Shown: in pieces, positions 22,490 through 26,742 of the stretch
How positions within the stretch are numbered: the first letter of the stretch is position 1
Layout of the letters: every line of letters starts with the position of its first letter
IMG/VR virus record: IMGVR_UViG_3300028025_001051
Coordinates: 1 to 30,018 of that record
Strand: one strand, 5' to 3'
DNA length: 30,018 nt
Source of the DNA: a virus
Made by a program: the position numbers and the translations under genes
The notes under the pieces: generated by a model
Databases searched by the model: none
What the model was told of the DNA's origin: nothing
What the model saw: the letters and a program-made list of their open reading frames with translations, nothing else

Positions 22490-22517
22490 ATTCTACTACG
22501 TTTTTATATCTTGTCGA
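22490..22517 (-). promoter_or_regulatory. Candidate sigma70 promoter for the primase gene
   Basis: Reading the minus strand, TCGACA (22517-22512; 5 of 6 to TTGACA) is separated by 16 bases from TAGAAT (22495-22490; 5 of 6 to TATAAT). The predicted start is near 22483. The -35 element lies inside the end of the HTH gene. Host RNA polymerase would use it, consistent with no phage polymerase being visible. Confidence 0.4.
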
Positions 22518-22815
22518 TAACTTTAGAACTGATAAAGTGTTTAGCATCGGTCGACGTTACAGCAGGCAACATGCCCTTGTCAAGACCTTTGTTTACTAAC
22601 TCTATAAATTTAGTTATCCTTTCATAATTTTTTTCTCTTACATATTGACCTCTGAACCAACTATGTATAGACATTCTTGATACATTGAAGGCCTCAGCTA
22701 CATAGGTCGTAGGCAAATTTGCTTTTACACAAACCTTACCTAGTTGTACACCTATTCTTGTCGGGTCAGCTTTCTGTAAGCTAATTAAAAATTGTTCGCT
22801 ATAAGGACGTGCCAT
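22504..22815 (-). CDS. Helix-turn-helix DNA-binding protein
   Basis: A 103-residue protein with AAGGAG before the ATG. Residues 35-57 form a clear helix-turn-helix: LPTTYVAEAFNVSRMSIHSW, with the tripeptide NVS at the turn and the recognition helix at 46-55. The rest (60-80) is a basic helix. It resembles small Cro/XRE-like phage regulators. It lies between the primase and the Cys4 protein genes. It could bind the inverted repeat at the helicase promoter or regulate the primase leader; either is inference. No protease or dimerisation domain is attached, so it is not a CI-type repressor. Confidence 0.65.
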   Translation of the reverse strand: MARPYSEQFLISLQKADPTRIGVQLGKVCVKANLPTTYVAEAFNVSRMSIHSWFRGQYVREKNYERITKFIELVNKGLDKGMLPAVTSTDAKHFISSKVIDKI

Positions 22816-23719: not shown

Positions 23720-24151
23720 TTATTTACTTGTTGGTTTTCTTACAACTACACTAAATTCTCTTATCGAACTAATACCTGGTGGTAAACCTTGGCCTTCATG
23801 GTTTGCCATATGCTCTGCAAAGTTACCATTGTGAATACGTTGTTGCAGTAATTCAAGAGCATTATTTTCTAAAACATATTGCTTAAATTCATCCCAGTTA
23901 TTGCAAGAGAATTGTTCTTTAACTGTTCTTGTGATAGTGCCCATATTAGTACGCACACTTTCTACATTTAAAGCATTACATTCATCTAGCATAACTTGTT
24001 CTAACTGACTTAATTCAGAACCAAGTTCAGTATCTTTTGTCTTGTATTGTCTGTACAAGTTTTCCCTAGCTGTTCTAATGGCAATATAAGCTTTTACCAT
24101 TTCGTCTAGCTTTGGACTTTCATGTACTTGCGGTTCTAATTCTTCACTCAT
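23720..24151 (-). CDS. Conserved-looking phage protein of unknown function
   Basis: A 143-residue protein. Residues 15-60 form a charged helix (VKAYIAIRTARENLYRQYK), then TNMGTITRTVKEQFSC, WDEFKQYVLENNALELLQQRI and the closing REFSVVVRKP. The alpha-beta pattern, and the NN-W-F-YV and RIHNGN-like stretches, recur in my memory of phage recombination loci, but no function is known. It starts inside the end of the SNF2-like helicase gene (ATGA overlap at 24148-24151), so it is co-translated with it and probably works with it in DNA metabolism. Confidence 0.5.
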   Translation of the reverse strand: MSEELEPQVHESPKLDEMVKAYIAIRTARENLYRQYKTKDTELGSELSQLEQVMLDECNALNVESVRTNMGTITRTVKEQFSCNNWDEFKQYVLENNALELLQQRIHNGNFAEHMANHEGQGLPPGISSIREFSVVVRKPTSK

Positions 24152-25713
24152 GCGCCTAACTCCTCTCGATATAAATCAACTAATTTTGTATGTAAATCTA
24201 CTTTGCCTTGTAACATGGCATACATCTTTCTTTCTACTTCTGATCCTTGTAAATGTACTACAGTCATTTTGTTTATTTGTCCTACACGGTCCATCCGTGC
24301 AATACATTGTAAATACGTTTCAACGGACATCACTGGAGACCAAAATACAACTGTGTTAGCTGCGGTTAAAGTTACGCCATGAGACGCGGATTGAGGTTGG
24401 ATGACTAATACTCTTGGCTCTTCCATTGTTTGAAATTGGTTTATTATAGTAGCACGTTGTGTAGCTGATACGTCGCCTTGAATAATCTTATTAGTAATAC
24501 CTTTATCTTCTAGATGTCTAGCCACTAATTCAATCGTATGTCTATAAGGAACAAAGATAATGACTTTATGTTCTGTCTCATCTATAACTTCCATCAACGC
24601 ATTAAGACGTGGTTGAACATCAAACTCTAATACTTCTTTAGTATCCGTATATACAGCACCACCTGATATTTGTAGTAGTTTATTTAAACCTGCTGCAGCG
24701 TTGACTGCACTAATCTGTGCACCGGCAGCTTCAATCATCATTTGTTCTTTCAGCATTTTGTAATACTTCTGAACTTGCGGCGTGAGTGGGATCTCACGAG
24801 TTGTATAAAGTACGTCAGGTAAATCTAAACAATCTGCTTTAGCAAAACGAATAGCGGGTTGTAACGCTTTGAATACTTCGTTCTTAGCATTAGGTTTAGG
24901 AACCCATTTAAACCTTGTTACTTGATACATAACTTTGTCACGCCAAGCCATAGCAAATTTAGGTACGTTCTGCGGACAAACAAGTCTGGCCAATCCATAC
25001 GCATCGACAGGAGATTGAGACGCAGGTGTACCTGTCATCATCCATAGTCTTGTCTCGGGTTTAAGTAATTTAGCTAGAGTCTTCCAGCGCGTAGTGGATG
25101 GACTCTTGTACGCATTAGCTTCGTCAATCACGATTAAATCAAATCCGCCTTTTATAATATCGTCTTTAACAATAGCAACACCGTCGTAATTAATAATTAC
25201 AAATTCATATGGACCTTCTATAACCTTAGTTCTTTTAGCTGCAGGACCATGTGCTACTGAAACAGATCTATGCATAGCCGTATTTAAAATATCAGCTTGC
25301 CATGCGGAATACATAATAGATAAAGGACATATCACAAGAACTCTTTTAATTATCTTTTGCGTCATTAGATAATCAGCTGCCCAGATGACTGAAGAAGTTT
25401 TACCTGTACCCGCTTCGTTAAAACAGAATGCTCTGTGATTGATACTTAGAAATTCAGAAGTTACACGTTGATGATCAAAAGGTTTGTATAAACCTGGGTA
25501 GTTATAATCTCGTTTAATTGGTGAAGGTAAATTGTTTCGGAAAGAAACAATCTGGTTGAGCCTAGTCATCTCTGGAACGTCCCAGTATATAACCATCTCA
25601 GCTAAGTTACCATTGCGTTCTACTACTTCAGACTTTGCAATGTTATCTGTAATATGCGGAACGATGTGCTCCGGTACAGTAATCTTTAGTGCAGTGTTTT
25701 GTATGATTTCCAT
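24148..25713 (-). CDS. SF2 helicase, SNF2-like DNA translocase
   Basis: A 521-residue protein with all core motifs: Walker A NEAGTGKT (99-106), motif II DEAN (197-200), motif III TGTP (227-230), the second RecA domain with VIIFVPYRHTIE (384-395), and motif VI QCIARMDRVGQ (469-479), which is typical of SNF2 proteins. About 80 N-terminal residues precede the motor. It hydrolyses ATP to move along double-stranded DNA, and in phages such enzymes help replication-fork restart or recombination. No Shine-Dalgarno sequence is visible; the predicted transcription start coincides with the ATG, so the mRNA may be leaderless. An ATGA overlap couples it to the next gene. Confidence 0.88.
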   Translation of the reverse strand: MEIIQNTALKITVPEHIVPHITDNIAKSEVVERNGNLAEMVIYWDVPEMTRLNQIVSFRNNLPSPIKRDYNYPGLYKPFDHQRVTSEFLSINHRAFCFNEAGTGKTSSVIWAADYLMTQKIIKRVLVICPLSIMYSAWQADILNTAMHRSVSVAHGPAAKRTKVIEGPYEFVIINYDGVAIVKDDIIKGGFDLIVIDEANAYKSPSTTRWKTLAKLLKPETRLWMMTGTPASQSPVDAYGLARLVCPQNVPKFAMAWRDKVMYQVTRFKWVPKPNAKNEVFKALQPAIRFAKADCLDLPDVLYTTREIPLTPQVQKYYKMLKEQMMIEAAGAQISAVNAAAGLNKLLQISGGAVYTDTKEVLEFDVQPRLNALMEVIDETEHKVIIFVPYRHTIELVARHLEDKGITNKIIQGDVSATQRATIINQFQTMEEPRVLVIQPQSASHGVTLTAANTVVFWSPVMSVETYLQCIARMDRVGQINKMTVVHLQGSEVERKMYAMLQGKVDLHTKLVDLYREELGA

Positions 25714-25740
25714 TCTAGTATATTAACAGGTTCTAGAATG
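25711..25740. promoter_or_regulatory. 8-bp inverted repeat, candidate operator
   Basis: CATTCTAG (25711-25718) and CTAGAATG (25733-25740) are exact reverse complements, 14 bases apart with centres 22 bases apart, about two helical turns. The repeat brackets the -10 region of the helicase promoter and includes its ATG. This is the geometry expected for a dimeric helix-turn-helix repressor, such as the one encoded at 22504-22815, although the partner is a guess. Confidence 0.45.
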
Positions 25741-25747
25741 ATGTCAA
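25720..25747 (-). promoter_or_regulatory. Candidate sigma70 promoter for the SNF2-like helicase
   Basis: A perfect -35 TTGACA (minus strand, 25747-25742), a 16-base spacer and TAATAT (25725-25720) put the start at 25713, the A of the helicase ATG. A second -10 reading, TATACT (25722-25717), has a 19-base spacer and fits less well. It lies in the 45-base gap between two genes. Confidence 0.5.
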
Positions 25748-25758
25748 GTATTAATTTA

Positions 25759-26073
25759 CTATTTCTTAGTAACTTTTTTTCGTTCTCTTTTACTTGCTTC
25801 GGACACTAAATTGTGTTTGGAATCTCTTTTAAATGATCGGTTCTTTTTTGCATCTTGGATGAAGTATCCATCCTTGTTTGAACCGCCTTTGTCAAGAGCT
25901 TTTTTGTGAGATACATCTTTACCTTCTCTGATTTCTGCTGTATGGTCTTTGTCTTTCGGACTGTCAAAGTGTTTCTTATCAATTGCACGGCGTGCACGTT
26001 GACGCTCCATCCGCTTCTTATGTTCTAACGGGGAGTCTTTATAGATAGGTCTGGGTTTATTGACGAAGGGCAT
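25759..26073 (-). CDS. Small basic protein with HNH-like residue pattern
   Basis: A 104-residue, strongly basic protein (many Lys/Arg, few hydrophobic residues). The N-terminal KRMERQRARRAIDKKHF is a basic helix. The middle KDVSHKKALDKGGSNKDGYF and NRSFKR recall the H-and-N part of HNH nucleases (DxxH...KGGSN...N), but a full catalytic set is not visible. It may be a DNA-binding protein derived from an HNH nuclease. No ribosome site precedes the ATG; the promoter next to it would give a leaderless mRNA. The function is open. Confidence 0.45.
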   Translation of the reverse strand: MPFVNKPRPIYKDSPLEHKKRMERQRARRAIDKKHFDSPKDKDHTAEIREGKDVSHKKALDKGGSNKDGYFIQDAKKNRSFKRDSKHNLVSEASKRERKKVTKK

Positions 26074-26079
26074 GCGGGT

Positions 26080-26107
26080 ATTATATCACCCATTGTTAAA
26101 ATCACAA
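26080..26107 (-). promoter_or_regulatory. Candidate extended -10 promoter
   Basis: Minus strand TTGTGA (26107-26102), 16 bases, then a perfect TATAAT (26085-26080) preceded by TGA, giving an extended -10 (TGnTATAAT). The TGA is also the stop codon of the Fe-S nuclease gene. The predicted start, 26073, is the A of the ATG of the basic protein. Confidence 0.5.
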
Positions 26108-26742
26108 GACTTGACAGGGCAGAACCTGCATAGTGGCGTATAATTAGGCGGCCAACTATTTGTTTCATAAGAATTATTTAATCTTTCAAGTGGGCCTTTA
26201 AACTTTTCCCATGACTTGTCAATATCTTTTCTGTCGTATTCTTCTGTAATAAATGAATTGTGCATCACAAACAATAAACCCGCTTTAATTTTATTAACCT
26301 GTGGGAAGTGGGCAAAGGTCATAAGGGACATAAGTCTTAATTGTTTTGGGTCGGGATACTTATTACTGCCTGTTTTATAATCAACAATAAAAGCATAGTC
26401 TCCATCCACAATAAGTAAGTCAACGATTCCGCGAACCCAACGATTTGGATCTCCGAAACTGCACACCGTTTTATCTTTAAGTAATGCCATTTCATACTCT
26501 GCATACTTCGTGCCAGGAATTGCGATTAAGCTATCAGCTGCAGATTTAAACCTAAGGTAATTGGTTGCAAGTTCTTTACCATCTTTAACATAGTCTTCCA
26601 AAGCTTTATGGACTTCTGTTCCATATTTCATTTGCTCCGAAGGAATAATTTCATAGTTCTGTGCTACTTTAATTTCATAGTATTGCTTGGGGCAATTTTG
26701 ATATTGCTTTAACGATGAAAACGACCATGTAAAGTCAGCCAT
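26086..26742 (-). CDS. Cas4/RecB-type PD-(D/E)XK nuclease with Fe-S cysteines
   Basis: A 218-residue protein. Nuclease motifs: His45 in YGTEVHKALEDYV, Asp108 in RGIVDLLIV, and Asp121-x-Lys123 in FIVDYKTG. One cysteine near the start (C17 in YQNCPKQYY) and three near the end (C205, C208, C213 in LCRFCPVKSC) form the split Fe-S cluster pattern known from AddB and Cas4. It would be a metal-dependent exonuclease acting on DNA ends, for recombination or host DNA degradation. No cas1/cas2 or CRISPR array is present, so it is not part of CRISPR adaptation here. Its ATG overlaps the stop of an upstream micro-gene (TAATG). Confidence 0.85.
   Translation of the reverse strand: MADFTWSFSSLKQYQNCPKQYYEIKVAQNYEIIPSEQMKYGTEVHKALEDYVKDGKELATNYLRFKSAADSLIAIPGTKYAEYEMALLKDKTVCSFGDPNRWVRGIVDLLIVDGDYAFIVDYKTGSNKYPDPKQLRLMSLMTFAHFPQVNKIKAGLLFVMHNSFITEEYDRKDIDKSWEKFKGPLERLNNSYETNSWPPNYTPLCRFCPVKSCDFNNG

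Follow-up and report, generated by a model that had tools for sequence, protein, structure and literature searches.

A predicted leaderless helicase promoter with an inverted repeat around its -10 in an environmental phage fragment

The window analysed here is a whole ~30-kb IMG/VR phage fragment (30,018 nt). Its SNF2-type DNA helicase gene is preceded by a segment that is well supported, from its sequence and that of its relatives, as a sigma-70-type promoter whose transcript would be leaderless, its first base being the A of the helicase ATG. An exact inverted repeat brackets the -10 element of this promoter and takes in the start codon. We tentatively favor a reading, which we place a little short of probable, in which this leaderless promoter is coupled to a repeat that would act as an RNA hairpin and silence transcripts reading through from upstream.

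The predicted promoter and start of the helicase gene

The genes concerned lie on the minus strand and are arranged, from upstream to downstream, as a PD-(D/E)XK exonuclease (26086-26742), a conserved 104-residue protein matching PHROG 4590 (25759-26073), the 521-residue helicase (24148-25713; PHROG 62, E 2e-104; Pfam SNF2-rel_dom and Helicase_C), two further genes, and a 103-residue Xre/Cro-like HTH protein (22504-22815). The 104-residue gene is directly upstream of the helicase, and the two adjoin in 76 of the first 81 sequences examined, the window being counted among them. Relatives were gathered as 80 loci via the helicase, 80 via the exonuclease, 80 via the 104-residue protein, and 80 via a relative's helicase. 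A search for the phage host returned matches only to stray metagenome-assembled contigs of mixed taxa.

The gap between the 104-residue gene and the helicase is 45 nt, reading TAAATTAATACTTGACATCATTCTAGAACCTGTTAATATACTAGA and then ATG. The promoter, also on the minus strand, consists of a -35 element TTGACA (25747-25742), a 16-nt spacer, and an extended -10 element, TAATAT (25725-25720) preceded by TGT, followed by 6 nt and the helicase ATG (25713-25711), the A of which is the seventh base past the -10 and the predicted transcription start. No Shine-Dalgarno sequence precedes this ATG, unlike most genes in the window, which have AGGA or AAGGAG. The first-pass annotation had proposed both the missing ribosome site and this same arrangement of TTGACA, a 16-base spacer, TAATAT, and a start on the A of the ATG; its elements are correct to the base, and the leaderless layout is strongly supported by the relatives.

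Among 16 distinct helicase promoters, TANNNT lies 6 nt (7 in one) ahead of the ATG with TTGACA 16-18 nt further upstream, and the -10 bases T1, A2, and T6 are unchanged in all 16 of these distinct leaderless versions. Where close relatives have an intergenic gap, TTGAC almost always begins directly after the stop codon of the preceding gene. The nearest relatives have gaps of 45-52 nt, in which TTGACA abuts that stop codon and TANNNT lies six bases ahead of the ATG. An exact DNA search found no near-identical promoter elsewhere. Because the layout recurs across the 16 distinct leaderless versions and the nearest relatives, the predicted leaderless start is a property of this clade and not an accident of one contig.

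The upstream 104-residue gene has, judged by comparison of the loci, a better supported putative leaderless start than the helicase. Its extended -10, TGATATAAT (26080-26088, minus strand), is 6 nt before the ATG, with the promoter and ATG together spanning 26071-26088, and the TGA within this extended -10 also terminates the exonuclease gene upstream. Among 175 distinct loci, TATAAT is present 5-6 nt ahead of the ATG in 49, all of which lack a Shine-Dalgarno sequence; 95 other loci have a Shine-Dalgarno sequence and no such TATAAT, and in L146-L148 TATAAT is followed by a short leader with AAGGAG. Since the 104-residue gene has a conserved TATAAT without a Shine-Dalgarno sequence, both leaderless starts and an upstream promoter from which read-through could arise are plausible in this clade.

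A scan for TTGACA-N15-18-TANNNT-N6-ATGGAAAT gave a raw count of at least 120 viral stretches (L197-L276 among them), many with near-perfect TATAAT. This raises the possibility that environmental phages commonly carry leaderless genes of the sigma-70 type.

The inverted repeat

The 5' arm of the repeat, CATTCTAG (25740-25733, minus strand), lies inside the promoter spacer between the -35 and -10 elements, and the 3' arm, CTAGAATG (25718-25711, minus strand), includes the start codon. The arms match exactly over 8 bp and are separated by a 14-nt loop containing the -10, so that the half-site centers are 22 nt apart, just as the first-pass annotation had described. That annotation further took the repeat to be operator-like and named the HTH protein as its binder.

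One explanation, which we regard as unlikely, accepts the operator role: a dimeric regulator of phage or host would bind across the -10 and block both RNA polymerase and the start region. In its favor, a repeat brackets the -10 in several lineages of unlike sequence, including a leadered sister group (L333/L423 type) in which the flanking arms are AATAGGT/ACCTATT, AATGAGC/GCTCATT, or AATGGG/CCCATT. Three pairs are changed on both sides in this group, a covariation score matched by 1 of 500 shuffles with the arms aligned by hand, and here the arm type agrees with the recognition helix of the HTH protein (RQSIHN with AATGAG; RMSVY with AATAGG or AATGGG), an agreement that probably reflects one evolutionary event. 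Against an operator, the arm spacing is not fixed among close leaderless relatives, in which the loops are 5, 11-14, or 16 nt, plus bulges, and no second copy of the repeat was found in the window. A regulon sharing the repeat was also rejected, as there is no second window copy and only two (L101 and L116) of the 35 matches across all viral contigs carry the helicase.

In L333, L334, L423, L319, and L444 a second repeat, AGCAC-N7/9-GTGCT (AACAC/GTGTT in L334), is present in the promoter spacer, and it interlocks with the repeat bracketing the -10 in a pseudoknot-like order.

The protein encoded at 22504-22815 is a real Xre/Cro-like HTH protein. HTH_3 matches are present in 22 of 43 family members, the predicted structure is all-helical (pLDDT 92.8), and comparison with the PDB gives weak matches to Xre-type repressors (best E 0.27); the gene is present in 25 of 29 records searched. 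As the binder of the repeat it is not supported, because, apart from the sister group, a given recognition helix is not regularly paired with a given repeat. The same recognition helix, SRMSIHSWFRG, is shared by the window, L432, L323, L329, and L132, although their repeats differ or are missing, and different helices (DTRSVYS in L402/L403, SRMAIHS in L398/L399) accompany one and the same repeat, TATTCTAG-N5-CTAGAATA.

A second explanation, also improbable in our estimation, is that the leaderless promoter is real and the repeat a coincidence of A+T-rich promoter DNA and fixed sequences (CTAGA beside ATGG). Taken alone the repeat is unremarkable, since the window contains 11 perfect inverted repeats with arms of at least 8 and loops of 3-30, against 13.9 expected from shuffles. 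In composition-matched random DNA, ~0.8% of promoter-like sites have a repeat of 8 bp bracketing the -10, and shuffling the spacer of this promoter yields one in ~1%, a figure obtained after the fact. The leaderless lineages L141, L339, L405, and L329 have a weak repeat or none that is clear, that of L405 being weaker.

Other relatives speak against coincidence, the arms being kept while the loops change. Both arms are intact in the two nearest, L328 and L419, with loops differing by up to four bases; L322 has the repeat with one mismatch, and L317 has ten bases paired with one bulge. In L432 both arms have lost one base in matching fashion, giving CATCTAG-N16-CTAGATG. An independent repeat, the TATTCTAG type noted above, is present with three different loops in L397, L398, and L401, its 3' arm overlapping the -10. 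Spacer shuffling with one representative per class gives a combined Fisher p of 5e-4, which is indicative, since the classes are related to one another and one of them contains the discovery locus. The conserved arms, together with the compensatory changes of the sister group, place the repeat above chance in its context, and a function for it is moderately supported by these comparisons. The operator role suggested by the first-pass annotation is not established, the arm spacing ranging from 5 to 16 nt among related leaderless promoters.

A possible switch in read-through RNA

Half-sites at a constant distance would be expected for a dimeric repressor. Variable arm spacing and bulges can be accommodated more readily by a folded RNA than by a rigid operator of that kind, and the reading that we favor is one in which the repeat acts in the transcript. 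RNA would read through from the promoter of the 104-residue gene into the helicase, and in this RNA CAUUCUAG would pair with CUAGAAUG, hiding the helicase AUG, such that helicase would not be made from read-through transcripts. Because the local promoter sits on the 5' arm, its own transcripts would lack that arm and would be translated as leaderless mRNA. Helicase synthesis would thereby depend on the gene's own promoter, an arrangement known from T4 genes e, soc, and 49. Silencing of read-through RNA by the hairpin is a plausible guess.

The predicted hairpin of the window's read-through RNA is modest (-7.7 kcal/mol; z -1.3 to -2.1), and the AUG is paired in the predicted fold with a probability of about 1.0. 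The AUG is likewise paired in the predicted hairpins of L317, L419, L328, and L432, and largely so in L397/L398. Compared with shuffled spacers, the p values for read-through folding are 0.004 for L432, 0.008 for L317, 0.016 for L397, 0.024 for L322, and 0.03 for the window, each being per class and uncorrected; folding energies are better than those of the spacer-shuffled controls in most classes (p 0.004-0.1), and not in L141. A structure pairing the start codon is kept in some leaderless lineages and weak in others.

Two considerations temper the hairpin reading. Read-through RNA has no Shine-Dalgarno sequence for the helicase, and silencing may therefore be needless. In the sister group the covarying repeat lies ~42 nt before the ATG, so that sequestration of the AUG cannot be its role there and a role at the DNA level is favored in that group; our confidence in an RNA hairpin is limited for this reason.

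Read-through also enters into a very improbable alternative, in which the helicase is not leaderless and is expressed mainly from the promoter of the 104-residue gene, with the local promoter being minor or starting inside the gene from TATACT (19-nt spacer). In its favor, TATACT is a better hexamer than TAATAT and lines up with the -10 in leadered relatives, L002 and L007 for example, and the 104-residue gene and helicase overlap by 17 nt in distant relatives and are therefore probably cotranscribed. TATACT was nevertheless rejected as the true -10 because its register is lost in the leaderless L432, L323, L339, and L401, with TANNNT kept 6 nt before the ATG, and transcripts starting downstream of it would no longer include the conserved ATG.

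Other leader types and comparison with known systems

In other relatives the TTGAC promoter precedes either a leader of about 20-60 nt or a long structured one. In distant relatives a strongly covarying, structured RNA leader lies between the promoter and the helicase ATG (L013:5345-5520, L020:5841-6000, L035:614-832, L147:2600-2680, and others), with a core of AACC-N-GUCAG-helix-CGG...GACAGG-helix-CCG and a terminal hairpin. Its main helix is paired in 99.2% of cells in 22 sequences with 35 double changes, a result reached by 0 of 500 shuffles, the pairs having been chosen from the same sequences. The fold is possibly a pseudoknot plus the terminal hairpin, and the leader is a further candidate regulatory RNA. 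A covariance model built on it picked up additional members, located immediately ahead of the helicase; the window contains none. Rfam gave nothing at the gathering score in the window or the relatives, and permissive Rfam scans of two leaders gave weak matches only, the best (RAGATH-23, E 0.95) falling far under its cut-off. Upstream of the main RNA core, a first hairpin with a conserved GUAAGGCAUGAGUG is present at L013:5345-5375 and L014:5852-5880.

L117 and L153 carry an inserted ORF of ~190 residues between the 104-residue gene and the helicase promoter, giving an intergenic length of 635-651 nt. The ORF resembles 2OG-Fe(II) oxygenases by eye, and in L117 the helicase promoter is intact behind it.

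One intergenic gap in related phages would thus hold at least three leader types, namely a folded RNA, a short leader with or without a Shine-Dalgarno sequence, and none. Such variety within a single gene family makes it possible to test what each mode costs and what it is used for. It is conceivable, and we hold this with rather little confidence, that a structured 5' leader was replaced by a leaderless promoter whose spacer encodes an AUG-hiding hairpin arm, such that only transcripts starting at the AUG would be translated. If the leaderless start is correct, a phage replication gene would be leaderless by conserved design, beside a second leaderless gene.

Leaderless mRNAs are known in bacteria and phages, with lambda cI as an example (reviewed in PMC9031893), and the helicase promoter resembles them in having a -10 ~6 nt before the AUG, a predicted 5'-terminal AUG, and no Shine-Dalgarno sequence. 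It differs in that a replication helicase and the adjacent preceding gene are both leaderless, with the start site predicted from sequence, and in that other genes of these phages mostly have Shine-Dalgarno sites. Xre/Cro-type operators overlapping a -10 are similar in the repeat around the -10 and in the Xre/Cro-like gene downstream on the same strand; here, however, arm spacing is variable, helix and repeat track each other in one subgroup only, and a second operator was not seen in the window.

The closest parallel to the proposed switch is with T4 genes e, soc, 49, and I-TevI, for which section 29 of PMC3014915 describes a hairpin in read-through RNA that sequesters the AUG or Shine-Dalgarno sequence, with a promoter on the 5' arm. 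As in the gene e type set out there, the 5' arm is part of the promoter here, the start codon falls within the 3' arm and is paired in the predicted fold of the longer transcript, and local transcripts would lack the structure. Relative to the same account, silencing here is only proposed, the promoter is of the sigma-70 type whereas that of T4 is a late promoter, and the transcript would be leaderless whereas that of T4 has a Shine-Dalgarno sequence. If the proposal is correct, the phage would have a switch joining leaderless translation with read-through silencing of the T4 gene e type.
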